Positions 20,088 to 45,151 of a DNA stretch of 64,000 nt are shown piece after piece; positions within the stretch are counted from its first letter, which is position 1; every line of letters begins with the position of its first letter. The notes under the pieces were generated by a model that worked only from the letters and a program-made list of their open reading frames with translations, was not told the DNA's origin and searched no databases. A program made the position numbers and the translations under genes. This stretch comes from a virus. The stretch lies in the IMG/VR virus record IMGVR_UViG_3300050821_003663, positions 39,678-103,677 of that record. The stretch is one strand, 5' to 3'.

Positions 20088-20588
20088 TTGAAAATAGCGA
20101 ATTATTTCTTGACCGCCTGCATCCTGTTGTCCACAGCAGGGTACGCCCAACAACCGGCCGCTTCATCGTCGGCGATAACAATCAAGCCAACCCCTGCCTC
20201 TGACGCCCTAAACGCAACGGCGAAAGATATGACCGAAACAGCCAAGAGCCTTGACACGGCCACACAGCAAGCGCGCAGCGCTTTCGACATGAGCGTGAAG
20301 TCACTCAACGACTCACTCTCAGCCAAGACGAAAGATCTGATGGATGAGTTGAAGTCCGACAAGAAGTACGCGCCGAAGCTGAAAGAGATCGAGACCATTC
20401 AGCAGCAGCAGAAAGATGCTATAAGCGAGGCGCAAAAGAAGTTCAACGCGAGCGCAGGACCGCTACAGCAGAAGGTTGCCACAGACCAAGCGCTCATCGA
20501 CGGATTGGTGCCAGTAGTGCGCAAAGAAAGCGGCCTTCCGCCCACAGCTAAGTTCGACGCGAAAACGCAAGAGTGGTCGACAAAATAA
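20088..20588 (+). CDS. Secreted helical protein with signal peptide
   Basis: 166 residues from TTG 20088, chosen because AAGGGAG (20074-20080) is 7 bases upstream and the resulting N-terminus is a typical signal peptide (NYFLTACILLSTAGYA, cut before QQP). The mature part is a long amphipathic helix region rich in Lys, Ala, Asp and Ser. A secreted protein in the middle of the replication block is unexpected. It may act in the periplasm, for example in superinfection exclusion. Function unknown. Confidence 0.6.
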   Translation: MKIANYFLTACILLSTAGYAQQPAASSSAITIKPTPASDALNATAKDMTETAKSLDTATQQARSAFDMSVKSLNDSLSAKTKDLMDELKSDKKYAPKLKEIETIQQQQKDAISEAQKKFNASAGPLQQKVATDQALIDGLVPVVRKESGLPPTAKFDAKTQEWSTK

Positions 20589-25588: not shown

Positions 25589-26902
25589 GTGAGGACCACG
25601 CTCAAGCTGCTTCTTGTGGCCATACTCTGCTGTGTCCCAGCAGCAGCTCAGACGGCTGTTATCTCCGGTCAGGCAGTCAATCAGTATGGGCAACCCGTTC
25701 CATTCGCACAGGTTAGAGTATGTAACGTAACTCTATCGGGGAACCCCTGCGACACAACCGGCGTTACCCTCTATCAGGATTACACTCGGCTCACACCCAT
25801 CGGGAATCCCGCCAGCGCAGATCAGTACGGCAACTATCTCATCTACGTCGGAGCGCTCGCATCGCCGAATCTCTACCTCGTGCAGCTCTCACCGGCAGCG
25901 GGGATTACATTCAACTACGGGTTCAACGGACCATTCTTGAGCGCATCGGGCGGAACGATCACGGGGAACCTCGTCGTCACGGGGATCTTTACAGCCGGAA
26001 CGATCAATACGCTATCGACCTACGAGGTGAACGGTTCGCAGATCGCGAGCTCTAATCTGGCCGACGGTAGCAACCTGGCCAAGCTAAACGCTTCGAACAT
26101 CTTCACCGGAGCAACGCAGACCGCGCCAATCTTCAACGCGACGACGCAATTTCAGGTGAACGGCATCCAGATCGCCAGCGCCAACCTCTCGGACGGAAGC
26201 AATCTCGCCAAGCTAAACGCAGCGAACGTATTCACCGGGTCACCTCAGACCGTGAACGTACTGAATGCGACAACCGTCAACAGTGCTGGCTACCTCGTTG
26301 GCAGCTCGGGAGGGAGTGCTGGCCAAGTACTATGCTCGAACGGCTCATCTCTCAACTCTCTTTGCACGGTCTACTCTCCGTCGAACACGCCCTTCTACCA
26401 AACCGTAAAGAGCCTATCGACGAGCATGACACAGCGCCTAGCGCTGGAGTTCACAGGGAGATTTGCTCTGACCGACTCAGCCTCACCGTCCCAGACCGGC
26501 GTGGATCTCAACGGCACGGGAACGGGAGGCAAGGCCGTCACAGCCACGGCCGCAGGGGCGGCGGGCAACTGTGGCTTCTGGACAGGCGCCGGAGACATCG
26601 GGGACAGCGGGGTTCCTTGTGCGCCTCAGATCGAGACCATCAGCGTGCCGGCAGGGTCAACCTGTACGACATCCGGTGCGAGTGACGCGGTTTGCACATT
26701 CCTTGTCACCTGGCCGGCGGCGTTCCCGAATACGAATTACACCGTGACCTGTACCGCAGGAGCGCTTACGGCGGGAACTGTGCTTATTGGGCCACGATGG
26801 TCAAACAAGACGACCACTGGAGTGACGATAACGATTCAGAACGGGACCAACGACGGAGCACTGGCAACGAATGCCCCAGTGGATTGCACGGGCATTGCCT
26901 GA
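25589..26902 (+). CDS. Fibre-like surface protein with signal peptide, 437 aa
   Basis: GTG 25589 gives a strong signal peptide (KLLLVAILCCVPAAA, cut before QTA). The next 100 residues ('ISGQAVNQYGQPVPFAQVRV') look like a carboxypeptidase-regulatory or Ig-like beta domain. The middle contains two near-identical repeats around 'VNGSQIASSNLADGSNLAKL' and 'VNGIQIASANLSDGSNLAKL', as in phage tail fibres. The C-terminus is a Cys-containing beta domain. First gene of a seven-gene cassette. Signal peptides are unusual for phage fibres, which are normally assembled in the cytoplasm. Confidence 0.7.
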   Translation: MRTTLKLLLVAILCCVPAAAQTAVISGQAVNQYGQPVPFAQVRVCNVTLSGNPCDTTGVTLYQDYTRLTPIGNPASADQYGNYLIYVGALASPNLYLVQLSPAAGITFNYGFNGPFLSASGGTITGNLVVTGIFTAGTINTLSTYEVNGSQIASSNLADGSNLAKLNASNIFTGATQTAPIFNATTQFQVNGIQIASANLSDGSNLAKLNAANVFTGSPQTVNVLNATTVNSAGYLVGSSGGSAGQVLCSNGSSLNSLCTVYSPSNTPFYQTVKSLSTSMTQRLALEFTGRFALTDSASPSQTGVDLNGTGTGGKAVTATAAGAAGNCGFWTGAGDIGDSGVPCAPQIETISVPAGSTCTTSGASDAVCTFLVTWPAAFPNTNYTVTCTAGALTAGTVLIGPRWSNKTTTGVTITIQNGTNDGALATNAPVDCTGIA

Positions 26903-26921
26903 GAAGTACTGGGAGGAATAG

Positions 26922-29900
26922 ATGTGGCGTCTAGCAAAAGCGTTACTGGTTGGGATTCTTGCAGCGGCCGCGCCCCTGCTGGCCCAGCCAACAATTAGCA
27001 ACGTCTATGTTTCGGCCGCCACGAGCACCACCGCCACGTTCACATGGACGACCAACACCCCATCGACTTCCCAGGTCCGGTACGGCTTCGACATCAGCTT
27101 GCCGTTCAACAACAACCCTGATTCGAATCTGGTGACAACGCACACGATGACGCTGACGTTTCTTCAGCCGTCGACGTTCTACTACTTCGCGGTCGTGTCG
27201 GCAGATTCCGGAGGGAATTCTTCGCAGTCGGCTACATCAAGCTTTTCGCTATGCTCCCCTGGAGAATCGGGAATTGTGCCAGTGCAAGGCACGGCCAACA
27301 ACTTCTACATGTATGGAACGTTCACGCTGACGTGGGTTCCGCCAGCGGGATCGAGCGGAACGCCAATGATTTGCGGACAGCCGATGGCTACGACGGCGAC
27401 GGGATCCTTGGACGGAGGGGCATCGCTATCATCATCCGTGGCGGACTCCTACAAGGCGATTCCAGGACCGGGAACGTGGCACGTCGCGGTGACCGACTAC
27501 GGGAACATTGCTCCAGTCGGCTTCAACTTTCCGATCTCTACGCAGAGCAACAACGTTTCCACGCCACTCAAGGCGGCCGCTAATGCATCAGGGCTAAAGT
27601 TCTGCCTGTCTACAGGGAGCGCGTTATTTCCATCGGACTGCGGTGGTGGCGGAGGATCTCCGCTGGTTGTGGAGATCAACGGCACACCGATATCCCCATC
27701 TAGCCCGGCCGATTTCGTAGATACCTCATCGGTGCATTGGACATTCTCCGGCGGGACAATTCAGGCCGCAGCTTCGGGAGGGAGTGGAGCGCTACCAGCA
27801 GCGCCGGCATACAGCGGTCAGTTTGCAAACGCAACCGTAACCGCGTTTCAGGCCGATCAGGTTCCAGCTTATGGCGTGAATTCGGCCTATAACTATAACC
27901 CCCTGACGCACGTGCTCGGGGTGAACGCCGTCAACGGTCTCGGTTTCATTAGTCCGTCTCAGACAAGCGGCGGCGACGGGCAGGCGGCATTCTTCAGCGG
28001 CAAGACGAACGCATTTGGGATAATCGACAATCTTGAGCTTGTCACGGGACAAGTAAGCGGCGTGACCGGCACCGGCGGTACTGGCATGACGCCGGGAACG
28101 TACTCGCTATCCTTCTCTGGTGGTGGTGGAGGATCAGGTGCGGCCGGCCTCATCGACGTGCTCACAGCGACGACATACGTTATTTCGGTGTCGAACCCAG
28201 GGACAGGCTATACGAGCGCTCCCACGGTCACCGCAGCTACCGGAGGAACCCCTCCAGCGCTGACAGCCACGATTGCGTCTGCATCCGATCCTGCGCAACC
28301 GCCGGGTAGCGGGAATATGATTTTCGATTTCCGCACCATTACTGGAACCTTTGGAGTGCGGTCGACGAATTGTGTGGCTAACAACACTATCGAGTCCTCT
28401 TTAGGCCAGCCTGACTCTCCCTGCCTTCAATCTGTCGTTTACGACAATGATCCCACGGCGACACGCGACCCCTTGTTTCTCGGCCTTCTAACGTATGGCC
28501 AAGGTCGGGACGTAGGCAACCAAGGAGCACTGGCGAATAGCGATCAAGGGTGGACTAACTCAGGAGCGCTCAATCTCGGCTTCGTTGTCTTTCGTCCGGG
28601 GATCAAGGGCGGCCTGACACTCGTAAACAACTGCCCATCCCAGGGTGATTGCAACGATTTCTCTGCATATAACCCCAACATAGGCTGGGCGCTCGCCGCC
28701 TCCGATGAAGGGCAAAATGGGTTTAGAAATAACAGTTCAGACTCTTCTAACGGAAGGGGCTATGTAACGGCCACAGTCAATACCGTGCCGAGTCCCGGTC
28801 AGCCAACCTACTCTAACGTATCCGGAGACTTCTTTAAGCCGGGGGGCATTTTGGTAGACACGACCCAGCCTTCGTTAGCGTTCTCGATCACCTCTCAATC
28901 GACGTCTTGGAACGCCCCGGCTGTGCTGTCGATGAATATCGGTCCACCCAACGGGCAAGGGTCAGGGCAGACTCCCAGCCTCGAATACACCGTAAGCTCC
29001 GTGGCAACCTCCAGCGGAGGCACGACAACCTACACGGGTACTTTTCCGGGCTGCACCGCAAATAATTTTGCGGGCCAGTACTGGTCATTCCAGAACTTCA
29101 ACGGCAACTTCGCTATCGGCGGGCCAAACAACGGAATCTATCTGGTTGCATCTTGCACCACGACCACTATGGTCGCGAATAATCCGCACGCTGTAGCGGC
29201 CACTTCCGCGTTCGGTGTTGCCATCCAAAACTATCAAATTGCCTGTTCTGGTGGAGGTGGCACAGGGCTGGTCGCAGTAGCCTCCGTTGGGCCTGGTGGA
29301 AATATCGGAGTTCAACCTGCAATCGTTGATCCGGGTTCGGGGTACACCTCTGCTCCTACGGGATGCGCCGTAACCGGAACAGGTGGGACACCCGCCACCT
29401 TTGGCGCTTCTCTGCAATCTCCGATGGGGCTTATCCCTATTACTGGGATCACCTTGACTCCGTCTACAGGGCAAGCAGTAACGCTGGACTATATTTCGGC
29501 AGCTCAACTCCCCACGCCAATGACGAATGTCTCAAGCGTAGTTCGCGTTCGAGTGGAGAATTCGCTACCTATCACCACCGGCTACGCATGGTTTATTGAC
29601 CCCACCGCACCTGAGTTGTGCGCTGTCACTAATGCGCCCGCAGCAGTGAGTGGGATCCAAACCTTGACGGTCTCGTGCCATCAGGCTCACGCGAACCCTA
29701 ACTACGTTACCCAGGGTTCAACTCCCGCTTGCCTGTGGCCGGATGCGAACTATACACAATACGGCTTCCCTGAGTGCTACGACTTGTTTGGAGCGCCTGA
29801 CTCATCCCACCTGTGGGGCGGCTTCACGGTCAAGGGAGCTCTAGTCGGCAACGGCATCCCCCGAGTAGGCAATGAATGGGCCGACGTAACTACAGGAAGA

Positions 29901-32900
29901 AACCCAGCTAACGCCACTTACCACGCATATCAGGCAACCCACATTCTCTATGATTCCGCCGGAACCGGATTCAATCCCGTTCTGAATGTCAGCGGGATCA
30001 ACTTCACTTCCGCAGATGCGATTTTCGGCATAGGCAATCCGTCTGTCACCTACAAGGGAATCAGTATGTCGGCGGTTCTAAACACTCCGATCAATGGAGG
30101 AGGATCGCAAACTGCCGTCTGGGGGGCTCAGGGGCAGCATGTTAGCCAAGGGTTCATCTTCACCGACACCATCAACGGCAACAATTTTGGGTACTATCAG
30201 GGCTGTGGATCTGGGTCGACTCAGTTCGTCTGCGTTCTTGCGACTCCTGGGGGACCGCTGATTGGCCCGATAGACCACAACGTCGTCGGCGCCTTTCAAA
30301 TCGGAAACCACTGGGCGCAACCTCCGATCCCCGGAGGTTCCCTGATCGACATAGGGGCATCACCCACGCCTTACACCTACGGAATCGTTAGTCCGGAGCT
30401 TGGCAACGTCGGAAATTTCAACGTATGTCCTTCCTGCAATGCGTTCCAATTCACGAACAATCTTGAGATCGGCAACAACACCAATACCCTCACCCTCACC
30501 CTTAGAGATTCTTTTGGGTCAGGAACGAACACCACATTTCTCGCGGTGAACCTCCCTCCGGAGGTGGTCTTCCTCGATTCAGTGTCTAACTTCGACAACA
30601 TGGCCGAGATGTCAGGGCTGGCATTTATCGGCTCTTCGATTTACGCCGGAGGGCAGCAGTCGGGCGCACTGATTGTCTCGCCTAATACCGGCGGGTCTAC
30701 AACGTGGTGTTATACGGTGACCTCTGTTACGCCTGTCGGAGAAAGCAAGGGCCTGTCACCTATCTGCACCAACGCTGGCGCGGTCACACCGAATAATTCT
30801 GTCAACTTCTCTGCCGCTACCCCCGGAGTCCACGCTTACAACGTCTACCGCGTTGCCAACGGTGCGGGATGTACTGGATGTGGAGGCACGGGGCCTGCTG
30901 GAGCATTAGCCCGAAATACGACTGCGAATCAGGTAGATACCGGGACGCTCGTCGATAGTGGGCTGCCTCCTACGGCTGACACTTCGGGAATCATGTACAC
31001 CCCGCAGTGGAATCAGGCATCGAAGACGTTCGGAATCTCTGGTGCGGGTCACGGCATCGGTCTTGTGCCGGATCCAGGGTCAACTTCGGGCGCGACTCGG
31101 TTCCTTCGTGAAGACGGAACATGGGATGTCCCAGGCGGCGGCGGAGGAGGAGGGTGCGGTCCTCTTGCCGGCGATGCGACATCAACGAATTGCGGAAATG
31201 GAAACCTCGGCACACCTCCGGGCGGAGCAAACAACCTGCAGGCATTCGGAACGAACAACCTCAACACCGACACTCCTGCTGAAGTGGTAGCGTTTGGTTC
31301 AAGTAACGCCAACACGAACCACGCCTCAGAGCTTGTGGCTATCGGTGATACGAACGCGACGGCGATTGCGACATCGTCAGCGGACGTCATCGGCATTGGG
31401 AACAACAACGTTGCTACCGTAACAGGGTCAATTCCAGATCTGATCTGTATCGGCGACGGGAATTGTCAGACCATCTCATGGTTGCAGGATTCCGTGGGAA
31501 TCGGCAACGCCAACTTCCAGAACAATGTAGGGGTAAGCAGCTCAACCTTCCTGTCTGAAGCTGTGGCTATCGGGCTCGGAAACGTGGGGTTCATCAATAA
31601 CGGAGCTACCGTCATCGGGATTGGCCAGTCGGCGGCTGGCGGATGCGGGCCGTCGCAGGGGGACTTTTGTACGGGCCAGCACGGCAGCAACAATATCAAC
31701 GACGTGATCTCAATAGGAGACTCCTCCGGCAATACCATCGGGAGCAACGTAGACGACGTCATCCTGATTGGGGATGGGGTGATGGACAGCGTGGCTCCAA
31801 GTTCGTCCGACATCATCGGAATCGGAGACGCCGCGCTTCAGGAGTGCGAGATTTCGGGGAGCTCTTCCTGTGCTTCCTTGTCCATACCAACCCCCACCGC
31901 CATGTCCCAAGTAATCGGGATCGGCACTCTCGCGGGCGCCTTCGACCAGGGGAGCAACATCATCGCGATTGGTCTCAGGACGGTTGGCGGTGGTGGATCC
32001 GCCTCGCCAATCACCGGCAATTCGGGGACTTTCAATATCGGTATCGGGGACAACGCACTAGCTAAAAACACCACAGGAAGTAATAACGTAGCTCTAGGAC
32101 CGTATGCAGGCGCAGACGGGTATGTCTTTCCGTCGACCTTTGGCAATTCCAATAAGACCGGTTCGAATAACACGTGGATCGGTTACGATTCTGGGCCGAA
32201 CACGACCACGCAACTGTCGAACACGATTGCGCTGGGCTACACAGCGCACAACACAGCGTCTAACCAAATCGTTATTGGTAACTCGTCGATCACGCAGTCG
32301 ATCATGTTCGGATCGCCGCAGTTCCCAACCATCGCGCCTGGAAGCGTCTCTTGCCTGCAGATAGATGCCAGCGGAAACGTGACGCCTACCGGATCTGGTT
32401 GCGGCGGCGGCGGCGGCTCGGGCACGGTGACCAACTTCATCGCATCGTCGGGTTCATGGCCTTCGTGGTTGACGCCAAGCGTTGCGACATCGACGACGAC
32501 GCCTACGCTGTCGGTTACTGCCAGCGCGATTCCGAATTCAGCTCTGGCGAATGCTTCGACCACGGTGAACGGCGTGACTTGCACGCTCGGATCAACTTGC
32601 ACAATTTCAGCTTCGGTCGTATGGAGCTCAATTGGCAATCCCACGGGCAATCTATCGCTCACGATGGGTGCGAATACGAGTACGTTCGCCTTCGGAGCGA
32701 CGAGCGGATCGGCCGACTTATTCAACATTCATGATGCCGCCAGCGACACCGGCACCGGCATCATGTTCCACATCACGACTGGGTCGGGCTCGACAGAAAT
32801 CCCGTGGCAGGTTGACGCCAACGGAGTTGGATTCAAGATAACCCCCACCGGCATCCTGCAAGGGGTTGGTTCTGCTACCACCCACGCGCTTATCTTCGCT

Positions 32901-33353
32901 TCGAGTTCGGTAGCGGCAACGCCATCTTCCGGCGAGGCTATCTACACGTCGGACAGTTCGGGTAATGCAGTCGGATCCAGCAACGGCTCAGCGCTGCAAC
33001 CGTTCCTGATGGGAACCTTCCCGTGGTCTTGCCAGCCTGGACTAGGGGACGGAAGCAACGCTATCACGGGCGCCACCTATCCCCAGACCAACTGCTACAA
33101 CGACACGGGTAAAACCGTTACGCTCACCGGCATCAAGTGCTTCACGGATAACAATGGCTCCTCAACGCTCAACGCGACCAACGGCGGAGGCACAGGGCTT
33201 CTCACGGGAGCGATCACCTGCACCACCTCCTTCGCGGCGGGAAGCCAGAGCGGAACGACAACCATTGCTGCCGGCGATTACATTAAGTTCAGCTTTGTGG
33301 CGGACGGCACTAGCAAGCAAGCGACGTTTGTCGTTACGGGGACGCATCCATGA
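26922..33353 (+). CDS. Giant fibre/adhesin-like protein with FN3 and YadA-head-like repeats, 2143 aa
   Basis: ATG 26922 follows GGGAGGA. Signal peptide KALLVGILAAAAPLLA, cut before QPT. Residues about 23-110 form a fibronectin type III-like domain. The centre has Gly-rich beta modules with the repeated 'GSGYTSAPT' or 'GTGYTSAPT' motif (about 425 and 805). Residues about 1445-1795 consist of many 'IGIGxxN/AIGxxA' repeats like the YadA/trimeric autotransporter head. The C-terminus is a beta domain similar to the end of 38993-40057. Predicted to be a trimeric adhesin-like fibre that binds the host surface. It overlaps the next gene by ATGA. Confidence 0.75.
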   Translation: MWRLAKALLVGILAAAAPLLAQPTISNVYVSAATSTTATFTWTTNTPSTSQVRYGFDISLPFNNNPDSNLVTTHTMTLTFLQPSTFYYFAVVSADSGGNSSQSATSSFSLCSPGESGIVPVQGTANNFYMYGTFTLTWVPPAGSSGTPMICGQPMATTATGSLDGGASLSSSVADSYKAIPGPGTWHVAVTDYGNIAPVGFNFPISTQSNNVSTPLKAAANASGLKFCLSTGSALFPSDCGGGGGSPLVVEINGTPISPSSPADFVDTSSVHWTFSGGTIQAAASGGSGALPAAPAYSGQFANATVTAFQADQVPAYGVNSAYNYNPLTHVLGVNAVNGLGFISPSQTSGGDGQAAFFSGKTNAFGIIDNLELVTGQVSGVTGTGGTGMTPGTYSLSFSGGGGGSGAAGLIDVLTATTYVISVSNPGTGYTSAPTVTAATGGTPPALTATIASASDPAQPPGSGNMIFDFRTITGTFGVRSTNCVANNTIESSLGQPDSPCLQSVVYDNDPTATRDPLFLGLLTYGQGRDVGNQGALANSDQGWTNSGALNLGFVVFRPGIKGGLTLVNNCPSQGDCNDFSAYNPNIGWALAASDEGQNGFRNNSSDSSNGRGYVTATVNTVPSPGQPTYSNVSGDFFKPGGILVDTTQPSLAFSITSQSTSWNAPAVLSMNIGPPNGQGSGQTPSLEYTVSSVATSSGGTTTYTGTFPGCTANNFAGQYWSFQNFNGNFAIGGPNNGIYLVASCTTTTMVANNPHAVAATSAFGVAIQNYQIACSGGGGTGLVAVASVGPGGNIGVQPAIVDPGSGYTSAPTGCAVTGTGGTPATFGASLQSPMGLIPITGITLTPSTGQAVTLDYISAAQLPTPMTNVSSVVRVRVENSLPITTGYAWFIDPTAPELCAVTNAPAAVSGIQTLTVSCHQAHANPNYVTQGSTPACLWPDANYTQYGFPECYDLFGAPDSSHLWGGFTVKGALVGNGIPRVGNEWADVTTGRNPANATYHAYQATHILYDSAGTGFNPVLNVSGINFTSADAIFGIGNPSVTYKGISMSAVLNTPINGGGSQTAVWGAQGQHVSQGFIFTDTINGNNFGYYQGCGSGSTQFVCVLATPGGPLIGPIDHNVVGAFQIGNHWAQPPIPGGSLIDIGASPTPYTYGIVSPELGNVGNFNVCPSCNAFQFTNNLEIGNNTNTLTLTLRDSFGSGTNTTFLAVNLPPEVVFLDSVSNFDNMAEMSGLAFIGSSIYAGGQQSGALIVSPNTGGSTTWCYTVTSVTPVGESKGLSPICTNAGAVTPNNSVNFSAATPGVHAYNVYRVANGAGCTGCGGTGPAGALARNTTANQVDTGTLVDSGLPPTADTSGIMYTPQWNQASKTFGISGAGHGIGLVPDPGSTSGATRFLREDGTWDVPGGGGGGGCGPLAGDATSTNCGNGNLGTPPGGANNLQAFGTNNLNTDTPAEVVAFGSSNANTNHASELVAIGDTNATAIATSSADVIGIGNNNVATVTGSIPDLICIGDGNCQTISWLQDSVGIGNANFQNNVGVSSSTFLSEAVAIGLGNVGFINNGATVIGIGQSAAGGCGPSQGDFCTGQHGSNNINDVISIGDSSGNTIGSNVDDVILIGDGVMDSVAPSSSDIIGIGDAALQECEISGSSSCASLSIPTPTAMSQVIGIGTLAGAFDQGSNIIAIGLRTVGGGGSASPITGNSGTFNIGIGDNALAKNTTGSNNVALGPYAGADGYVFPSTFGNSNKTGSNNTWIGYDSGPNTTTQLSNTIALGYTAHNTASNQIVIGNSSITQSIMFGSPQFPTIAPGSVSCLQIDASGNVTPTGSGCGGGGGSGTVTNFIASSGSWPSWLTPSVATSTTTPTLSVTASAIPNSALANASTTVNGVTCTLGSTCTISASVVWSSIGNPTGNLSLTMGANTSTFAFGATSGSADLFNIHDAASDTGTGIMFHITTGSGSTEIPWQVDANGVGFKITPTGILQGVGSATTHALIFASSSVAATPSSGEAIYTSDSSGNAVGSSNGSALQPFLMGTFPWSCQPGLGDGSNAITGATYPQTNCYNDTGKTVTLTGIKCFTDNNGSSTLNATNGGGTGLLTGAITCTTSFAAGSQSGTTTIAAGDYIKFSFVADGTSKQATFVVTGTHP

Positions 33354-34270
33354 TGAAGCTATTGGTTGCATTAGTCCTATCTAGCCAGATCGTTGCCGGC
33401 GGAGGGCATCGCAAGATCTTCTCCTCCAGCGCCCCTCTGTCGTTGCTCGACTACACGCCAAACGGTACTTCTGACGTCAAGCTGGCTTGCAGCTTCTCTC
33501 ACGCGCTGAAGCAGAGCTGGACCGCGCATCTTATTCAGATCACCAGAGCCAGCGACTCGACTACGTCGGATGTGACGCCTCTATCGACCGGAGCGATCAA
33601 TCAGACGACGATCACCACCTTCTGCTCGGGGACAACCTGTACCGTCTCGAAGTGCTATGACGAATCAGGCAACACGAACGACATAACCTTCTCGCCTGGG
33701 CCAATCATTTACCAGAGTGGCGCTGTTATCACGAACGGGCCGAACAGTCGTGTAGCGGCATCCTTCACGGGATCTCAGTCTGGTACAGCTACGGTCACCC
33801 TGACGGGGAGCACAGTCGAAGGAATGATGGTGGGGAATTTCAATAACCCCTTGTCTACCTACCAAGGCTTGCTTGAGGTAAGCAACGGATCGAGTAGCTG
33901 CAGCGGGAGCGTGACCTACGTCTGCATCTTTCTCAACTCCGGAGGAACAAACGCGGTAGGCGCGTATTACACGGGCACCGGCGGAGCAACGCAGGCGATC
34001 ACCTGGGGCACAGCGTTCTACGCCGACATGTTCGCCACTCTATCTGGCGGATCCCCTGAGATTGCTATGGCACTCAACGGAGGCTCATTCAACACCACGG
34101 CTGCTTCGGCAAACAACCTGTCTGCCACAACTGCGATAATCGGAACAGATATCGGCGGCAGCAACCTGAATGGCTACGCGCAGGACATAGTTCTCTTCGT
34201 CACGCAATCGAATTCGACCCAGCGCACCAACGCGCACACCGTTGAATCCACCTTTTTTGGGACGCCATGA
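33350..34270 (+). CDS. Secreted beta-rich surface protein, 306 aa
   Basis: The hydrophobic N-terminus (KLLVALVLSSQIVAGGG) is a weak signal peptide. The body has the look of a lectin/LamG-like sandwich ('FNNPLSTYQGLLEVSN' and 'ALNGGSFNTTAASANN'). This sandwich type is common in phage fibres and suggests glycan binding. Starts and stops overlap both neighbours by ATGA, so it is part of one translation unit. Fold call inferred. Confidence 0.6.
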   Translation: MMKLLVALVLSSQIVAGGGHRKIFSSSAPLSLLDYTPNGTSDVKLACSFSHALKQSWTAHLIQITRASDSTTSDVTPLSTGAINQTTITTFCSGTTCTVSKCYDESGNTNDITFSPGPIIYQSGAVITNGPNSRVAASFTGSQSGTATVTLTGSTVEGMMVGNFNNPLSTYQGLLEVSNGSSSCSGSVTYVCIFLNSGGTNAVGAYYTGTGGATQAITWGTAFYADMFATLSGGSPEIAMALNGGSFNTTAASANNLSATTAIIGTDIGGSNLNGYAQDIVLFVTQSNSTQRTNAHTVESTFFGTP

Positions 34271-37200
34271 AGCGATACCTCTTACTTGCCGCGATGTTCC
34301 TGCTGGCCGCTGTTGGCCACAGCACTACCTGGTACGTCACCACCGGGGGCAGCGACTCCAACCCATGTACCCTTGCGAGCCCTTGCGCTACGCCGACCCA
34401 TGCTTTCAATTCTGTCGCAGCTCCGGGGGATACGGTGAACGTCGGACCCGGCGTCTACAGCTACGGTTCCAGCGCGGCCATCTTCAGCACGGCGGGGACA
34501 GCGGGCAATCCGATCACGGTTACCTGCGCCACTCGCGGCACCTGCCGCATCACCAATACCGTCACGGGCAACGCAACCGTGGTGGAGATGAACAACAACT
34601 ACCAGATATTCGATGGCTTCGAAGTTACCAACACCGGAGCGGGAAACAATCTCGGCATCTATGTCACCGGCCACGACGTCAGCCTGACGCGGAATACGAT
34701 TCACGACATCCAGACTGACTGCTCATCTTCTGGTGGAGGCGGAGTTCAAATCGCTGTTTCCAACCTGACCAACATCGTCATCGACTCGAATCAGGTTTAC
34801 AACATCTCATGGGTCTCGGGTGCTCCGAAATGCGCGTCGACCGTAGTGCAAACGGACGGCATCCTCGCCGAACAGACCGGCTTCACCACGACGACGACGA
34901 TCACCAATAACCTCATCTACAACACCTCTGGCGGGTGGGGAATCGCAACCTCAACCAACGCGCTGATCGCGCACAACACCATCTTCAACACAGTGAATGG
35001 CGGCGTCGTCGTCAATAACGCTCCCTCCGGCGCGGCGGTTGAGGACAACATCATCGTCTACACCGGCCTCCTGGCGAGCGACTCGAACTTCTATGGTGGC
35101 GCGTGCGCGATCCAGAACGGCACTGCCTCGACTACCACCTACGGCCATAACGAGCTCTCCAATAATCATGGTGGAAACTACGGCACCGGATTCGGATGCT
35201 CTGGCTCCGGCCTCAACACGGGGGACATCGCAGTCGATCCTGCCGGCGGAACTGTCTTCGTCAACTGGCAGCAAAATGGCTCAGGGAACTACCACGAGCT
35301 GTCCAGCTCGCCGACCGTCAGCGCTGGAACCAACGTCGGCGTCACGCATGACTTCGATGGCCACGTTCGTCCGACCGCTGGGTACGACATGGGAGCATTT
35401 CAGTACGGCGTTGTGACGGGAATCGCACTCTCTCCGAATGGCGGGGTGGTGATCGCGAACGGAAGCCCTGGAATCACCTTCCTTCCGACTTGCACCTTCA
35501 CTATCGGGCCTCCCGCTCCATGTCCTGCTCCTGTGTGGGACACTCCTACTGACGCGCTTCTGACCGCGAATGGCGGCTCGGTAGCGGGAGGTGTCTTGAC
35601 GTGGTCCAACGGCTACCAGCCAAACGACACATCCCTCTTCCCGTTCGGAGCTCAAACCGCGATTGGTGTCATCCACGGCTGCGACTCATCGAGCGGAACG
35701 AAGTATTGCGATTTCGCTCAGGTACTCGCTCTCGAATCTCCAAGCGGGACGATCAACATCTATCCCACCCCTTCTCCGGGGTTCTATCAAAACATCCAAC
35801 TCTCCAGCTCTTACTACACGGCGGATCTAGTGGTTGGATCGACCGCTGCGATAGGGACAGGATTCCAGTGGGCCGGCTCGGGCTACTACAACCCAATCCA
35901 GTTCGCGTGTACATGGTCTTCGTCGAATAACGCTATCGCCACGATTACTCGCTATGGGCTGGTCACAGGCGTTTCACCGGGAACGGTGACCGTCTCTTGC
36001 AATATAGCGCTAGGCCCTGGCGTGACTATCGACAATACAGTGTCGAATGCTGGGCAGACCTGGACGTTCAACGTCATCAGCCCAACGCCGTCGAACCAGA
36101 TATGGTATATCCGGCCTGACGGCGGAACGCCCTATTACTCCGCCGGCCAGACTCCATCCGGCCAATGCGACGGCAAGCATGACGCCTCGTACGCCAGCAC
36201 GGGAGGCACCGGAGTCAATCAGCCCTGCGCCTTCGACAACTTCAGGGACGGATGGGCAGATGAGGTTACGGCAAACTCTTATGGTCTGGCGGGGAGTCAG
36301 AACATGCTCTACGGCGCTGGCGATACCGTTATCATTCGCCAGAAGACAGGAGGCTACAATCTCGGCCTCGATCAGCTCGCCCCCGCCTACGGCGGATCCG
36401 CTACGGTCCCTATCAACTGCGGGAACCCAGACTGCTTCATGCCGACGATTCCATCCGGCGCTCCGATTGCAACCGCGACGGGATACTCGATCAACCTGGG
36501 TGTAGCGACAATCTCAGCTACCAACACCCTGTCTGCTGGCAATGTGGTGAAGCTTGGATTCGCCTCGGCGCCTTTCGGTGGAGCTAACTACACCGTTATG
36601 TCGGCTGGACTCAGCAGCTCTCAATTCGAGGTTCTAATCACCGCGCCCAACGTGAGCTTCACCTCGGCCGCCGGCGTGGTCGTAAGGCCAACGAGGATCC
36701 TCGGAGAGAACTATGCGGCTTGCTCGGCCGACTCCTCGAAGACTCAGCTCAATCTCTCATGGGCAACTCTCAACGGCATCAGCATCCTCGACTCCCAGTT
36801 CGTCGACGTAGAGTGCGTCTATATCACGCAGGCAGCATCATGCGGCACAGGTGGAGGCGGGTTCGCCCCAAACAATTGCAAGAACAGCAACCTCAACTAT
36901 GGCTGGTCAGGAGTGAGAGAATCAGCCTTCAGTTCCAATGACACGCTAACCAACATTTTCATTGACGGCGTTGGATTCGAAGGGGTCAGCGGTGCGACTG
37001 GGGCAGGGCTAGTTTTCGATCACCTCCACATACGAGGCGCACCTTTCACGGGAATTGATATGGACGATACGCCCTACGGTGGGATCTCAAACATCTCCGT
37101 CGCGGGCGGATTAACGATGACGAACTCCATCATCGAATTCACCGGATGCACGGAAGAGAAGCCGATTGTCCACAACTACCCATTCATTCAATGCATCGGG

Positions 37201-38499
37201 CAGAACGGCGGCGGGCAGGGCGATGGGTTCGGCACAGCCTCCACCACCGGAACGTGGGTCTTCGACCACGATATCTTCCGCTTCAATCTCCAGGATGGTC
37301 TCGATCTCCTTCACTCGGGGATGCAGAACCTCTCCGTTACTAACTCGCAGGGTTACGGGAGTATCGGCAACCAGTTCAAGCTGGGTTCGAATACCGGCAA
37401 CGGAAACTTCACCAACAACTACGGGCTGTCAAACTGCCAGCGCAGCGCCTTCACGATTGGAGATGAGCCGTCCTCGGGAGTCAACACCACGGACATCTGC
37501 CGCGCTAGCGCCACCGGCCCGCTTCTGTGGCTCTGGTTTGCCTATGGCACCTACACCGCGTACAACAACACCTTCCTCGGCTACGCTCCTACGGCGGTCA
37601 CCTACGAGTGCGACTACGGCAGCGACAACTGCTCGGGTGCGAACACGGCTTTTGTCAATAACGTCATCAACGGCTGGGCCACAGCCAGCGGCTACAACGG
37701 CGGTGCGAATATGGGGGCGTTGTGTGCGCTGAATATCTTTGCTCGCAACAACTGCAACGGCACCCTCACCCGCTACCCAGCCAACCAAGGATTCGCCGCT
37801 CGCTCGAACAACGTCTACAACGGCATGGGAAGCTGCCCGCTGACCACTCTGAGCACGGAGACCTGCAACAATAGCCCAACCTCAAGCTTGCCGGGATTCA
37901 GCTACAACCAGTCCACCAACACTCTCCCCTATACGCTGGCGGGGGAATCGCTGATGGATCCCTTCAACTTCCCCTCGAATTACAACGGGACATATCTAGT
38001 CGGGACAGCGCAGGGTGTGTATCCGGCGTCAGGGTCGAGCCTGATCTCAGCTTTTGGTGTAGCCGTTTCCGGCTTGCTGGTTGATTCTATCGGCTACACC
38101 TACGCAAACCCACCCAGCATCGGCTACCTCCAGTTCCAATCGGGCACACCGACGGCATCGCAGCCAACGGCATCGCCAACACCTGGCACGTACGGCAGCA
38201 CGCAATCGGTGACATTGTCGACGACGACATCGGGCGGGGTGATCTGCTACACCATCACCGGAGCAACGCCGACCGCGACGACTGCTGGAACCTGCGACGG
38301 CTCTCCGACGCAGACGTATACCGGGGCGATCACCGTTTCGACGACGACTACGATCAAGGCCATCACGACGGCAGTCGGATTCCTGAATTCATCTGTGGGC
38401 AGCTTCACGTACACCATCGGTGTAGCAGCGCCCACGGGGTTGACAGGAGGAATCGGGACCACCCTACTAGGTGGAGCGGGAGTGACCTTGCAGCGATGA
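34267..38499 (+). CDS. Large secreted beta-helix protein with BIG2 and chitobiase-like domains, 1410 aa
   Basis: Signal peptide KRYLLLAAMFLLAAVG. The first pectate-lyase-like right-handed beta-helix begins at 'TTWYVTTGGSDSNPC' (about 18-32) and extends to about 375. A BIG2 Ig-like domain follows ('NAIATITRYGLVTGVSPGTV', about 553-572), then a second beta-helix from 'IWYIRPDGG' (about 612) to about 1275, and a C-terminal chitobiase-type beta domain (about 1288-1388). Two beta-helices in one chain suggest a polysaccharide-binding or -cleaving spike. No catalytic residues could be assigned. It may degrade host capsule or EPS during entry. Confidence 0.72.
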   Translation: MKRYLLLAAMFLLAAVGHSTTWYVTTGGSDSNPCTLASPCATPTHAFNSVAAPGDTVNVGPGVYSYGSSAAIFSTAGTAGNPITVTCATRGTCRITNTVTGNATVVEMNNNYQIFDGFEVTNTGAGNNLGIYVTGHDVSLTRNTIHDIQTDCSSSGGGGVQIAVSNLTNIVIDSNQVYNISWVSGAPKCASTVVQTDGILAEQTGFTTTTTITNNLIYNTSGGWGIATSTNALIAHNTIFNTVNGGVVVNNAPSGAAVEDNIIVYTGLLASDSNFYGGACAIQNGTASTTTYGHNELSNNHGGNYGTGFGCSGSGLNTGDIAVDPAGGTVFVNWQQNGSGNYHELSSSPTVSAGTNVGVTHDFDGHVRPTAGYDMGAFQYGVVTGIALSPNGGVVIANGSPGITFLPTCTFTIGPPAPCPAPVWDTPTDALLTANGGSVAGGVLTWSNGYQPNDTSLFPFGAQTAIGVIHGCDSSSGTKYCDFAQVLALESPSGTINIYPTPSPGFYQNIQLSSSYYTADLVVGSTAAIGTGFQWAGSGYYNPIQFACTWSSSNNAIATITRYGLVTGVSPGTVTVSCNIALGPGVTIDNTVSNAGQTWTFNVISPTPSNQIWYIRPDGGTPYYSAGQTPSGQCDGKHDASYASTGGTGVNQPCAFDNFRDGWADEVTANSYGLAGSQNMLYGAGDTVIIRQKTGGYNLGLDQLAPAYGGSATVPINCGNPDCFMPTIPSGAPIATATGYSINLGVATISATNTLSAGNVVKLGFASAPFGGANYTVMSAGLSSSQFEVLITAPNVSFTSAAGVVVRPTRILGENYAACSADSSKTQLNLSWATLNGISILDSQFVDVECVYITQAASCGTGGGGFAPNNCKNSNLNYGWSGVRESAFSSNDTLTNIFIDGVGFEGVSGATGAGLVFDHLHIRGAPFTGIDMDDTPYGGISNISVAGGLTMTNSIIEFTGCTEEKPIVHNYPFIQCIGQNGGGQGDGFGTASTTGTWVFDHDIFRFNLQDGLDLLHSGMQNLSVTNSQGYGSIGNQFKLGSNTGNGNFTNNYGLSNCQRSAFTIGDEPSSGVNTTDICRASATGPLLWLWFAYGTYTAYNNTFLGYAPTAVTYECDYGSDNCSGANTAFVNNVINGWATASGYNGGANMGALCALNIFARNNCNGTLTRYPANQGFAARSNNVYNGMGSCPLTTLSTETCNNSPTSSLPGFSYNQSTNTLPYTLAGESLMDPFNFPSNYNGTYLVGTAQGVYPASGSSLISAFGVAVSGLLVDSIGYTYANPPSIGYLQFQSGTPTASQPTASPTPGTYGSTQSVTLSTTTSGGVICYTITGATPTATTAGTCDGSPTQTYTGAITVSTTTTIKAITTAVGFLNSSVGSFTYTIGVAAPTGLTGGIGTTLLGGAGVTLQR

Positions 38500-38510
38500 G
38501 AGGAGATACC

Positions 38511-38975
38511 GTGATCGGCAAACTTATTCTGATGCTCTGCATTGCGGCTCCGCTGGCCGCACAGCCCGCCAACTTGGGTTGGACGGCCTCCACCACCCCT
38601 GGAACGTCGGTAGACCTGTACAGGGCCACAGGGACGTGCCCTGGCACCGCCTACGCGCTCCTGCAGGCCAACCTGCCAGCCGGCGGACCTGCGACGGACG
38701 CCACGGTAACCGTGGGGAACACATACTGCTGGTATGTGACGGCGGTTCTTGGCGGAATTCAGTCGCCCCCTTCTAATACTTTGCAGTTGTCCGTGGCGCC
38801 AACAGCACCCAGCAACCTGACTGGATCGGTATCGAGAAACGTCACCAAAACGATCACCTACCAGATGGCCCCTCTGAAATGTTCGGGCGGAAGGACGGTT
38901 ACTCCGCCAAAGCTCACTTGCACAGCGGTTTATACTCCTAGCACTAATTCGATTGCGCTGAGTTGTCACACGTAA
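38511..38975 (+). CDS. Secreted FN3-like protein, 154 aa
   Basis: GTG 38511 has AGGAG 5 bases upstream and gives a clean signal peptide (KLILMLCIAAPLAA, cut before QPA), so it is preferred over ATG 38496. The mature protein begins with an FN3-like domain ('LGWTASTTPGTSVDLYRA'). The C-terminal third has two Cys pairs. Probably an accessory surface module of the fibre cassette. Confidence 0.65.
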   Translation: MIGKLILMLCIAAPLAAQPANLGWTASTTPGTSVDLYRATGTCPGTAYALLQANLPAGGPATDATVTVGNTYCWYVTAVLGGIQSPPSNTLQLSVAPTAPSNLTGSVSRNVTKTITYQMAPLKCSGGRTVTPPKLTCTAVYTPSTNSIALSCHT

Positions 38976-38992
38976 GCTCGAAGGACAACTTC

Positions 38993-40057
38993 ATGAAGTT
39001 CGCACGATACATCGCCGCGCTACTATTCACGGTTCCGCTGATGGCGCAGAGCCCACCGCTCATTCCCGTTGCCGGATACGTGTCTTCCGATTCCGGCGCT
39101 ACCTGGGAACCGCTGACGGGTGGAACCGGTACACCGGTATCCGTCGCTCCTCCGGGAAGCGCGATCTATGCTTCGTGCGGCACGAACCTGTGGTGCCCGT
39201 GGAATGGAGGTGGTGGCGGTGGTGGATCGGTTTCAATCACCTCGCCTAGCGGTAGCCTCACGGTTTCTCCGTCCCCCCTCACTGGCACCGGCACAATCGA
39301 CCTCAATGCAGCCCACAACGCAGCGTGGACAGTCAACCAGTCGATCACTTCGGCACAAGGCTCTGGAGCGGGCGCGACTCTTGCACTTTCGAATACGAGC
39401 GGATCTGCCCTGGCGAAGCTAACCTTCCAGTCTCTTAGTGGAACGGGGTTTGAGATCTACGACGGGAGTCCAACATTTGCCAATGGTTTTATCGGAATCG
39501 CCAACATTGCCGAGAACGATTTTCCGGTAATGATAAAAGCGCAGTCGATGTTCCTTGAAGTCGGATCGGTGATCGGAATTTCAAGTTCGAGTGTTCCTAC
39601 GAGTGTCGATACTGGACTTAGCCGGGACTCTGCGGGCGTATGGGATGTGGGCAATGGAACGCAGGGAGACAAGTCGGGAACCCTCAAAGCCGCCAACATA
39701 GTACTGACCGGAACCTGTACTGGATGCACCCCGCTCTATCTCAATTGGACCTTCAACTCCGGTATCGCGGCAACCGATGCAGCGCCTCGATTCCTCGCGT
39801 CTCACGCAGCCACGATTTCAGCCTGCTATGCGCTGACAACGGCGTCCGACGCTTCTACGGCGCTAACGTTCAACATCTTCGACAACGGGTCGTCGATATT
39901 TTCTGGCGGAGCGCAGACAATCGCAGCGGGAACCGCAGCGGGAACACTTACGACGCTTGGAGCGCTGGGGACGACCGCGATTGCCAACAATGATAAATTT
40001 TCCATCAACATCACCAGCGGAACTTCGAGCTGGATCTTTACGGTGCAATGCAAATGA
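38993..40057 (+). CDS. Tail-fibre-like protein with signal peptide, 354 aa
   Basis: ATG 38993 (AAGGA upstream) gives signal peptide YIAALLFTVPLMA, cut before QSP. The segment 'SVSITSPSGSLTVSPSPL' after a poly-Gly linker is a typical phage fibre repeat. The C-terminal 100 residues are a beta-sandwich that resembles the C-terminus of the 2143-residue protein. A role in receptor binding is inferred. Confidence 0.7.
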   Translation: MKFARYIAALLFTVPLMAQSPPLIPVAGYVSSDSGATWEPLTGGTGTPVSVAPPGSAIYASCGTNLWCPWNGGGGGGGSVSITSPSGSLTVSPSPLTGTGTIDLNAAHNAAWTVNQSITSAQGSGAGATLALSNTSGSALAKLTFQSLSGTGFEIYDGSPTFANGFIGIANIAENDFPVMIKAQSMFLEVGSVIGISSSSVPTSVDTGLSRDSAGVWDVGNGTQGDKSGTLKAANIVLTGTCTGCTPLYLNWTFNSGIAATDAAPRFLASHAATISACYALTTASDASTALTFNIFDNGSSIFSGGAQTIAAGTAAGTLTTLGALGTTAIANNDKFSINITSGTSSWIFTVQCK

Positions 40058-41481
40058 AAAATCTGATCTTCATTCTCACATTGCTTGTCCCTATACCGGC
40101 GTTCGCCACCTTTGGTGCGGCGACCGCGTGGGATGTCAAGACGACTGGGGCAAATACGAATGGTGGCGGGTTTGACTCGGGCGTGGGTGCTCCCGGCACG
40201 GACGAAAGCCAAGGTTCAGGTACGGCAATCACATGCACCCTGACTGGAACCACAACCGCGACATGCTCTCCGGCGATCTCCGCAACGACGCACGGGCCGG
40301 GGAACTTTATCAACATCGCCAGCGGCTCCGGATGCACCACCGGATGGTACGAGATCCTTTCGCAATCAAGTGGCACCGCGACCTTCGATCACGCGATGGG
40401 AACTGCGACCGATGCATGTGTAGGGGTGGTGGGCGGCTCTTTGTCCACGATCCAACAGGCGAACACTAACTCCGTTGCCAGTAACGCTATCTGGTGCTCG
40501 GGAACCTACACCTTCACGACTACCCTTGCCGTCGCTCAATCAACGGTCAGCTTCATCGGCTATGGCTCGACTCACGGCGATGGAACACTCTGTTCATGGA
40601 CGACTGCTACCAACTCGACCGTAATCATCAACACGGGAAGCTCAAACGGCGGAACCCAGACGTTCCAAAACCTTAATCTGAGCAACACCGCTACGACGAA
40701 GGCAAGTGGCATTTACCAATTGAACGCTCACGGTACGACACAGGGCTGGAACTTTGTGAATGACACCTTCAACGGGTTCGCTGTGGCTATTGATTCCAGT
40801 GATGGCACTCCGGACGATGTGGCGTTCATCACAGTAGTCAACTCGCTCATCGAAAACAGCACAATCGCAGGCATATCAATGGGAGGGACCGATTTCGGCG
40901 TCCTCCGCATCTTCGGCAGTTCGTTCATCAGTAATGCTCAACACATCAGCATCAGCGACAACTCTCCGGTGACGATTGCTAGAACCATCTTCGCTGGATC
41001 GACGGCGGCTTTTGGGTTGAACATGGACTCGATTGATAGCACGACATTCGACAACTGTACGTTTGCCAACAACGTGAACAGCAGCGCGACGGTTGGCTTC
41101 ACGAGTAACAATGCGTTTTTCGCTTTGACGAACAACATCTTCTACGGGAATACGGGTCTCGGGCTAGCAGTTATAACGTCAACAGGAAATGGCGCAATCC
41201 GTGGTTTGGCAAGCAGCCACAGCAACGCTTTTGGAAATAATACTGGCGGAACAGGATGGCCGGGAAGCGTAGGAGATGTGGCACTGACCGCTAATCCGTT
41301 CACAAATGCCGGCTCAGGCGATTACTCGCTCAACTCGACGGCTGGCGGCGGGGCCGCACTGAAAGGTGCGGGATTCCCCGGCATCTTCCCCGGCGGAACA
41401 TCCACGGGACATGTTGACATCGGCGCAGTACAGAGTGCCGGATCTTCAACGACGGGGAATAATTTCGGAGTTTCTCAGTAG
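40054..41481 (+). CDS. Secreted beta-helix protein, 475 aa
   Basis: ATG 40054 overlaps the previous stop (ATGA) and gives signal peptide KNLIFILTLLVPIPAFA. Residues about 110-420 contain short Asn/Ser/Gly-rich repeats typical of a right-handed parallel beta-helix ('GSSFISNAQHISISDNSP', 'NNIFYGNTGLGLAV'). The end matches the DUF1565-type 'VDIGAVQS' motif often found at the end of such helices. Probable surface glycan-interacting protein; last gene of the cassette. Confidence 0.7.
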   Translation: MKNLIFILTLLVPIPAFATFGAATAWDVKTTGANTNGGGFDSGVGAPGTDESQGSGTAITCTLTGTTTATCSPAISATTHGPGNFINIASGSGCTTGWYEILSQSSGTATFDHAMGTATDACVGVVGGSLSTIQQANTNSVASNAIWCSGTYTFTTTLAVAQSTVSFIGYGSTHGDGTLCSWTTATNSTVIINTGSSNGGTQTFQNLNLSNTATTKASGIYQLNAHGTTQGWNFVNDTFNGFAVAIDSSDGTPDDVAFITVVNSLIENSTIAGISMGGTDFGVLRIFGSSFISNAQHISISDNSPVTIARTIFAGSTAAFGLNMDSIDSTTFDNCTFANNVNSSATVGFTSNNAFFALTNNIFYGNTGLGLAVITSTGNGAIRGLASSHSNAFGNNTGGTGWPGSVGDVALTANPFTNAGSGDYSLNSTAGGGAALKGAGFPGIFPGGTSTGHVDIGAVQSAGSSTTGNNFGVSQ

Positions 41482-41783: not shown

Positions 41784-42266
41784 ATGGCCTCGCCGCAACA
41801 GATCGCCGCCAGGTTGGCCGTTGTTCCGGCCGCTCAGGCCGCAATGAGCCAATATGGAGTACCTGCCTCGGTAACTCTCGCTCAATGGGAATTGGAGTCG
41901 GGCTGGGGAACAAGTAAACTCGCTACCGAAGCCAACAACTTCTTTGGTATAAAGGCGGAGCATCTGAACGACCCGAATACCTACGAGGAGTTCCCAACGT
42001 GGGAGTATGAGAACGGCCAGCGCGTCTTGGTTGAAGCGGACTTCGAGAGGTATCCGGATGCGGCTTCTAGCTTCGCAGATCACGGAAGACTGTTATCTCA
42101 AGCTACTCGCTATGCGCCCGCGATGGCTGTCAAGGATGATCCTTACGCTTTTGCCAACGAGCTTCAAGCCTGCGGTTACTCGTCGTCGCCGGATTACGGA
42201 ACCAGCTTGGGAAATATCATCCGGGGAGCGAATCTCACGCAGTACGATCTACCCCAAGGAGGGTGA
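41784..42266 (+). CDS. Endolysin, glucosaminidase (FlgJ/GH73-type)
   Basis: 160 residues, almost all one glucosaminidase domain: 'TLAQWELESGWGTSKLA' with the likely catalytic E38 before SGWG, then 'NNFFGIKA' (about 51-58), 'YPDAASSFADHG' and 'GYSSSPDYG'. It cuts the peptidoglycan sugar backbone to release progeny. There is no signal peptide, so it needs a holin, and candidates lie on both sides (41560 and 42270). Confidence 0.88.
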   Translation: MASPQQIAARLAVVPAAQAAMSQYGVPASVTLAQWELESGWGTSKLATEANNFFGIKAEHLNDPNTYEEFPTWEYENGQRVLVEADFERYPDAASSFADHGRLLSQATRYAPAMAVKDDPYAFANELQACGYSSSPDYGTSLGNIIRGANLTQYDLPQGG

Positions 42267-43487: not shown

Positions 43488-43814
43488 ATGAAAAGTCACG
43501 CGGGGATTCTCTTGTTGTTCACTTTGGCGATGCCGTCTCTCGCCCAGGTTGCTCTTCCAACCGCGCTACCTAAAACCTCTACTGAGGCTGCCCAGCGGAC
43601 TATCGCAATGGACGACCAGATTCGAACGCTGGAGGAGCAACTCAAGCTGAACCCCACCTTCAAGGCGTGGCAGCGCTTGAAGGAAGAGCGGCAACAAATG
43701 AGTAACCTTGCAGACACGATGCGCGTCAGCGAGGACGAAGCGGCCAGCCGTGCTGCCCATCAAGCTGCAATAGACGCTGCATTGAAGAAAGCCCAGCAGA
43801 ATCCACCAAAGTAG
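43488..43814 (+). CDS. Secreted coiled-coil protein, spanin-like candidate
   Basis: 108 residues: signal peptide ILLLFTLAMPSLA (cut before QVA) and a mature helical region (about 40-100, 'QIRTLEEQLKLNPTFKAWQR'). A periplasmic coiled coil beside the endolysin fits a spanin-type role in outer-membrane disruption, but there is no transmembrane anchor or lipobox, so it may pair with the lipoprotein at 44543. Confidence 0.5.
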   Translation: MKSHAGILLLFTLAMPSLAQVALPTALPKTSTEAAQRTIAMDDQIRTLEEQLKLNPTFKAWQRLKEERQQMSNLADTMRVSEDEAASRAAHQAAIDAALKKAQQNPPK

Positions 43815-44542: not shown

Positions 44543-45151
44543 ATGAAAAGGCTTCTCATCAAATACCACCGTCAGCTAACCATGCTGGCTTGCGTTTTAT
44601 TTATCGGGATCTGCGCGATGGCGATGGCCGGCTGCGGAGTTCCCACCTGGCTGTCGGACGCCTCACAGATCATTGGCATGGTAGGAACCAGCGTCACGGC
44701 TATCGGTGCGTTCATCGCTGGCCTGACAGGCAACGCTGCTTTGGCGGCCGCGCTCGCAACAATCAGTGCATGGATCACGAAAGTCGAAACCGGAATCGCC
44801 GATCTCGAAGAGCTCGTGAGCCAGTACAACGCCGCGCCCACTCCGGGGCTGCTTGCGAATATCGAAGCCGCTCTGGCCGATGTCAGTGCAAACCTCGCAA
44901 CAGACTTCAGCAATCTTGGATTACCGAGCGGCATCCTGAATGTCATCGCGGGGATCGCAGCGCTCGCGCTCTCTCAACTGGAAGCATGGGGCAGCTTGAT
45001 CCCTGCGCTGCAGGCTAAGCCGATGGCCTCGTTCACCATCAAGACGCCGTACACGAAGGCTGAGTACAAGGCGCTGGTGAATAAGATCCTGACGACACCA
45101 ACCGGCGACAAGATGGTCGACGCCGCGCTGGCAAAAGTAAAGAAGATGTAG
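44543..45151 (+). CDS. Lipoprotein with hydrophobic helices, 202 aa
   Basis: Signal peptide with lipobox (MAMAGC, C31) after a hydrophobic core. The mature part has several weakly hydrophobic Ala/Gly-rich helices ('MVGTSVTAIGAFIAGLTGN', 'LAAALATISAWI'). It could be an outer-membrane component of lysis or a superinfection-exclusion lipoprotein. Last gene before a strong terminator. Confidence 0.55.
   Translation: MKRLLIKYHRQLTMLACVLFIGICAMAMAGCGVPTWLSDASQIIGMVGTSVTAIGAFIAGLTGNAALAAALATISAWITKVETGIADLEELVSQYNAAPTPGLLANIEAALADVSANLATDFSNLGLPSGILNVIAGIAALALSQLEAWGSLIPALQAKPMASFTIKTPYTKAEYKALVNKILTTPTGDKMVDAALAKVKKM

Follow-up and report, generated by a model that had tools for sequence, protein, structure and literature searches.

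Tail fibres decide which bacteria a phage infects, and they are normally completed inside the host cell and taken as cytoplasmic products. What, then, is a phage doing with seven consecutive fibre- or adhesin-like proteins that all begin in the manner of secreted ones? The question is raised by the genes at positions 25589-41481 of a 64,000-nucleotide window, the whole stretch of DNA analysed here, which comprises bases 39678-103677 of the 103,677-base IMG/VR virus record IMGVR_UViG_3300050821_003663. The first 30 kb of the record encode a terminase, a portal, a major head protein and an internal virion or nozzle-type protein, and the virion genes are followed by replication genes, then by the seven genes of the export module, and then by an endolysin. 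The terminase, portal, head, one tail protein and the nozzle-type protein have distant relatives in Tunturi_2, an isolated podovirus whose host is the acidobacterium Tunturiibacter (PMC11924767). Thus, judged by these homologies, the record belongs to a podovirus-like phage, for which an Acidobacteriota host is likely. We favour, with moderate confidence, the view that the module is a late set of Sec-exported, disulfide-bonded fibre proteins that would bind or cleave glycans on the host envelope. That its proteins are exported at all is a much firmer claim, which we regard as highly probable from their sequences.

All seven proteins have an N terminus with the n-h-c layout of a signal peptide and small residues at -3 and -1, as a first-pass annotation of this DNA had proposed. 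These N termini are of textbook quality in six: gp25589 (437 residues, 25589-26902; MRTTLKLLLVAILCCVPAAA followed by Q), gp26922 (2143 residues, 26922-33353; MWRLAKALLVGILAAAAPLLA followed by Q), gp34267 (1410 residues, 34267-38499; MKRYLLLAAMFLLAAVGHS), gp38511 (154 residues, 38511-38975; (V)IGKLILMLCIAAPLAA followed by Q), gp38993 (354 residues, 38993-40057; MKFARYIAALLFTVPLMA followed by Q), and gp40054 (475 residues, 40054-41481; MKNLIFILTLLVPIPAFA followed by T). The weakest, MMKLLVALVLSSQIVAGGG, belongs to gp33350 (306 residues, 33350-34270), and reading of this N terminus bore out the annotation's own reservation about it. Its remark that several proteins are cut before glutamine (Q) also held, with Q at +1 in four of the seven (gp25589, gp26922, gp38511, and gp38993). 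Scored with a home-made heuristic predictor, not SignalP, all seven module proteins exceed the cut of 3.2, versus one of 17 other phage genes of at least 300 residues (Fisher 2e-5); 10 of 176 spurious open reading frames (ORFs) of at least 100 residues pass it as well. The seven genes all lie on the plus strand and overlap by a few bases at the junctions 33350, 34267, 38496/38511, and 40054, and thus look like one operon. They adjoin the endolysin of the lysis cassette (41784-42266, plus strand), which is the next functional gene 3' of the module. On the basis of ribosome sites, two genes are assigned other starts than in the ORF list: gp38511 most likely starts at 38511, where a GTG has a good site (AGAGGAG), rather than at 38496, and gp38993 most likely at 38993 rather than at 38963.

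One may argue that these N termini stay on ordinary cytoplasmic fibres as structural anchors, or are hydrophobic by chance, given that the predictor is heuristic and that hydrophobic N termini can serve assembly. We consider this very improbable. The n-h-c layout with small residues at -3/-1 recurs across 53 mostly unrelated proteins from the window and related blocks, and in 29 of these 53 phage-locus proteins the residue after an allowed cleavage site is Q, versus 9 of 33 in sampled bacterial loci. Fibres of Tunturi_3, Tunturi_5, and crAss001 do not have such N termini, and both the paired cysteines of the set and the export of one of its families from host gene clusters, described below, speak against anchors or chance as well. 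From these signal-peptide-like N termini, use of the Sec pathway by the module proteins is very probable. The frequency of Q at +1 in the 53 proteins recalls the Q-rule of Bacteroidetes.

The cysteine (Cys) pattern of the module is as expected for proteins that fold in an oxidising compartment, where disulfides would form. The mature proteins contain, in gene order, 10, 40, 6, 34, 5, 6, and 7 Cys, which amounts to 2.10% of residues versus 0.25% in 13 virion-like proteins (our own choice, some of them without confirmation as virion parts) and 1.06% in the remaining phage proteins. The 40 Cys of gp26922 and the 34 of gp34267 are paired along the chain, with a median spacing of 13.5 within and 77 between pairs in the former (p 1e-6) and of 12 and 61.5 in the latter (p 1e-5). 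Similarly, the exported proteins of Tunturi_2 and of a second Tunturi phage, Tunturi_4, have paired Cys and even counts throughout (20, 10, 20, 34, 8, 20). A high Cys content was rejected as proof of export on its own, because four enterobacterial tailspikes without a signal peptide have 11, 12, 9, and 13 Cys; only the pairing, which is not clear in these tailspikes, differs.

Is the arrangement peculiar to one virus? Related contigs were sought with three baits, namely gp40054, the gp34267 beta-helix, and the gp26922 tip domain, and runs of two to five consecutive Cys-rich signal-peptide proteins were found in L002, L008, L009, L011, L012, and L043-L049. Counting L007 and L050, about 13 further independent IMG/VR phage contigs have the arrangement, L048 and L049 being near-identical here. 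For example, gp40054 is 32% identical over its full length to a signal-peptide protein of the 107-kb phage L002. The export run comes after Cys-poor virion genes in L008, and after the baseplate genes J and I and one fibre gene without a signal peptide in L050 (the signal peptide of 4822 in L050 was read by eye). Moreover, integrated elements in two Acidobacteriota genomes carry signal-peptide fibre pairs upstream of a gene that is terminase-like by eye, and the first protein of these pairs is conserved at its start and end (56% and 51%) with a divergent middle. These prophage-like elements, L021 and L022 (G267:C5 and G124:C22), have the same flanking genes in the two genomes. Among cultured phages, signal peptides are found in gp12, gp13, gp14, gp16, and gp17 of the podovirus Tunturi_2, ahead of the endolysin, and in gp113 and gp114 of the siphovirus Tunturi_4; the paper that describes the Tunturi phages says nothing of signal peptides or of virion proteomics (PMC11924767). 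No signal peptide was seen among the annotated fibre genes of Tunturi_3 and Tunturi_5 in the stretches read (the first 50 kb for Tunturi_5), nor in the tailspike genes gp22-26 of crAss001, which occupy the same place. Tunturi_2 and Tunturi_3 have a common host strain. Close relatives of gp25589 were found in neither viral contigs nor INPHARED, and none of gp26922 or gp40054 in INPHARED.

The gene order with conserved signal peptides, which the first-pass annotation had suggested looking for, is thus present in contigs, prophages, and two cultured isolates, and these sequences support runs of exported fibre genes as a recurrent trait of Acidobacteriota phages. Its interpretation as export stands in part: the proteins are fibre- or depolymerase-like and, considering their recurrence and Cys pairing, very probably Sec-exported, but the trait is not general. 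Export of fibres by every acidobacterial phage was rejected, since Tunturi_3 and Tunturi_5, whose hosts belong to the same genus, use ordinary fibres that lack signal peptides.

What exported fibre-like proteins might act on is suggested by the family of gp34267. Pfam confirmed a Big_2 domain in this protein, together with a C-terminal CHB_HEX_C domain, and by homology the protein has a beta-helix (pectate-lyase-like), which aligns with Tunturi_2 gp17 and Tunturi_4 gp114. The family is present in 30 of 396 Acidobacteriota genomes (E <1e-10). Judged from the match coordinates, the helix itself is covered in about 19 of the 30, and only a C-terminal domain in the remainder. Six chromosomal loci were read, and five of them have glycosyltransferase, UDP-sugar dehydrogenase, or flippase genes around the beta-helix gene (neighbours called by Pfam at three loci and by matching sequence starts at two), and most of the beta-helix genes at the loci read encode signal peptides. 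One chromosomal protein is 62% identical to Tunturi_2 gp17 over about 600 residues, and another is 37% identical to gp34267 over 873 residues. In a tree of 25 sequences the phage and chromosomal copies interleave, and well-supported branches force at least five phage/chromosome changes, counted without direction. The tree indicates repeated exchange of gp34267-family genes between hosts and phages, and the hosts themselves appear to export members of the family from beside genes for exopolysaccharide (EPS). It is among the chromosomal relatives of gp34267, and not in the phage copy itself, that an exported beta-helix accompanies EPS biosynthesis genes. Because the family is common to the hosts' exported EPS-cluster proteins, a role of the module in the host glycan envelope is supported in direction. 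Chromosomal EPS clusters such as L063, L064, and L067 with their neighbours often hold two or three paralogous exported beta-helix proteins within about 10 kb, several of which adjoin a conserved glycosyltransferase pair.

According to the reading that we favour, the seven genes would be a late operon whose products serve at the host envelope. Each protein would be synthesised with a Sec signal peptide that can be cleaved off and would cross into the periplasm, where its Cys would pair oxidatively and the chain would fold as a fibre rich in beta structure, a beta-helix, or a lectin. At about the time of lysis, as the adjacent endolysin suggests, the proteins would reach the outer surface and the EPS coat, and most likely bind, trim, or degrade host surface glycans from the inside out, so that progeny could escape from a cell embedded in EPS without sticking to debris. 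In this view some members stem from tailspikes and might also attach to virions after a breach of the membrane. Late action on EPS or other surface glycans is the best fit to three features: the EPS-cluster family, the carbohydrate-related domains (GH54-like, Kelch, Laminin_G_3, CHB_HEX_C, and heparinase II C-terminal), and the lysis-side position. More broadly, phages with such modules probably either act on the host sugar coat from outside or finish their fibres outside the cytoplasm. Action on EPS and pick-up by virions are not mutually exclusive.

The domain content of the other members is varied. In gp26922, Pfam confirmed an FN3 domain, and the AIG-type repeats match a tailspike PHROG at 7e-5. 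A gp53-like tail-fibre C terminus in gp25589 (E 0.004) falls under the curated cut-off, and its N-terminal beta domain resembles tailspike N-terminal domains by motif only. gp38511 is FN3-like by eye, gp38993 fibre-like, and gp40054 beta-helix-like. gp33350 has a GH54 arabinofuranosidase-like (lectin-type) domain (Pfam 2e-16; PDB 6sxt, 6e-7) rather than a generic fibre. A YadA-type trimeric autotransporter was also considered and rejected: no Pfam match to a YadA-type C-terminal outer-membrane anchor was found in any of the seven proteins, and gp26922 ends in a soluble tip domain.

Several points weigh against a glycan-acting module. The enzymatic role of its members is a prediction, and gp33350, besides its weak signal peptide, may be only a lectin, because its GH54-like alignment ends short of the second catalytic region (acid/base). 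Furthermore, the signal-peptide genes of Tunturi_2 are nearly the sole large fibre candidates of that phage, which favours a role in the virion.

Such a role would involve assembly in two compartments: capsid and tail would be built in the cytoplasm with empty docking sites, while the receptor-binding spikes would be exported, oxidised, and folded in the periplasm and would dock on the virions after holin opens the inner membrane or after lysis. Evidence for it comes from Tunturi_2 gp12, in which a tailspike head-binding domain lies directly behind the signal peptide. The same domain starts at residues 7-14, without a signal peptide, in the tailspikes of Serratia MTx, Klebsiella KA2-1, Erwinia Cronus, and Escherichia ECO1230-10, and hhalign matches it to gp12 with 96.8% probability (E 2e-10, 48% identity over 58 residues); the tailspike profile in turn matches PDB 7eeq, 'Tailspike head-binding domain' (E 0.0018). 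The option of virion pick-up, raised in the first-pass annotation, stays alive because of this domain. A profile of four acidobacterial-phage proteins, gp12 among them, matches the head-binding domain at 96.5%, but gp25589 alone gave no significant match to the head-binding profile, and an AF2 model of its N-terminal domain from four sequences was unusable (pLDDT 45). A fibre motif, N-x-N-F-x-x-I-D, linking Tunturi_2 gp13 with Tunturi_4 gp112 was not significant and was set aside.

Structure prediction was more informative at the C terminus of gp26922, where the tip domain (33015-33350, plus strand; CQPGLGDG...IKCFTDNNG) has four Cys that are invariant in 11 of 11 sequences. Further signal-peptide proteins from Acidobacteriota phages have this domain at 58-72% identity, and a scan of 84,980 species found it in bacterial records of only two Acidobacteriota metagenome-assembled genomes (MAGs). 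Its AF2 model (pLDDT 87) is a beta sandwich like those of phage tail-fibre tips, with the tail fibre of Agrobacterium phage 7-7-1 as the top PDB match (E 1.7e-3, TM 0.57), and many of its matches in BFVD are phage proteins, several of them named tail fibre. The model thus supports, with moderate strength, a fibre-type C-terminal tip on gp26922. Taken by sequence, the set appears to combine parts of phage fibres with exported EPS-type enzymes, all behind signal peptides.

The resemblance of the tip to tail-fibre tips also suits assembly in two compartments, as do the location of the blocks at fibre-gene sites before the lysis genes (after the virion genes of L008 and the baseplate genes J and I of L050) and the fact that, apart from the signal-peptide genes, we recognised no large fibre candidate in Tunturi_2. 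P22 tailspikes dock on tail-less particles in vitro. On the other hand, kinship with proteins exported from EPS clusters is more in keeping with free enzymes, some fibres of Tunturi_4 and L050 lack signal peptides, and we know of no tailed phage that assembles its fibres this way. That tailed Acidobacteriota phages build two-compartment virions, adding Sec-exported, oxidised receptor-binding spikes at or after lysis, is therefore a tentative proposal that we think unlikely; if true, it would add a new route to those by which tailed phages are assembled.

Exported adhesins might instead coat the infected or lysogenic cell, mask its receptors, and change its adhesion, giving surface conversion or superinfection exclusion. 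The signal peptides and the several different glycan-binding folds would suit this, as would the pairs carried by the integrated elements L021 and L022, and Porphyromonas prophages encode exported Q-rule proteins that are proposed outer-membrane modifiers (PMC10367356). The place beside the lysis genes suggests late expression, however, no membrane anchor or lipobox is common to the set, and the arrangement is present in phages isolated from clear plaques (PMC11924767). We consider this explanation improbable, less so than that of anchors or chance segments. The host-surface role put forward at the outset thus gains support in its direction from the EPS-cluster family, and remodelling, superinfection block, and virion pick-up are all candidate functions.

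How does the putative glycan-acting module compare with known systems? Phage morons of the lambda Lom, Bor, and Cor type encode Sec-exported envelope proteins, and Lom adjoins tail-fibre genes, but these are small outer-membrane proteins or lipoproteins rather than runs of large fibre or beta-helix proteins. Tailspikes and depolymerase fibres of tailed phages (the P22 gp9 type and those of Serratia MTx, Erwinia Cronus, and crAss001 gp22-26) have beta-helix or lectin bodies like those of the module, and known tailspikes share the N-terminal head-binding domain with Tunturi_2 gp12 and likewise lie between virion and lysis genes. Unlike the module proteins, the four enterobacterial tailspikes and the fibres of crAss001, Tunturi_3, and Tunturi_5 have no signal peptide, and the four tailspikes lack clear Cys pairing. 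In the literature available outside subscription journals, we found no account of tailed phages with runs of exported fibre proteins. The closest parallels are bacterial. WceF of Pantoea stewartii is an EPS enzyme with a tailspike fold and a Tat signal (PMC7949094), encoded in the bacterium's own EPS cluster and exported, and is a direct parallel to the chromosomal homologs described here; it differs from the module in being bacterial and Tat-exported rather than phage-encoded, Sec-type, and arranged in multi-gene runs by lysis genes. The mosaic adhesive trimer (MAT) fibres of Bdellovibrio have a signal peptide, surface display, mosaic glycan-binding tips, and a conserved beta domain of about 130 residues after the signal peptide (PMC10769870). 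They resemble the module as phage-fibre-like proteins with a signal peptide, but belong to bacterial predation machinery and are not phage-borne. On the phage side, the nearest parallel is found in phages of Porphyromonas gingivalis, whose exported Q-rule proteins have signal peptides of the host type followed by Q at +1 (PMC10367356); these are five proteins annotated without function, proposed as one family and not described as a fibre-like run.

If true, the export of whole sets of fibre- and depolymerase-like proteins by many phages of one abundant soil phylum would change views on host range, EPS breakdown, and fibre assembly, and would also explain the sharing of genes with the hosts' EPS clusters. 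Since the module is present in cultured phages, the question is directly testable.

A few further observations concern the same phage and its relatives. Small proteins with signal-peptide or lipoprotein-like N termini are encoded at window positions 20088-20588, 43488-43814, 44543-45151, and 53547-53972, and the one at 44543 has a relative in L008 (13836), directly after the export block of that contig. Outside the window, a 204-residue protein of the same phage (G000:C1, 1439-2053) has a Tat-like N terminus (SRRGLLGLLG). In a Bryobacterales MAG contig (L013/L024; PMTT01000925.1), a tip-domain protein, an HRK-motif protein, and a large protein stand in phage-like order, surrounded by glycosyltransferase, FkbH-like, and methyltransferase genes and not by recognisable phage genes. 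Finally, positions 3228-14354 of the window encode a single protein of 3708 residues with no Cys, whose sole match is of the helicase/ResIII type (residues ~2321-2554), and which looks like a large polyvalent phage protein, possibly injected.

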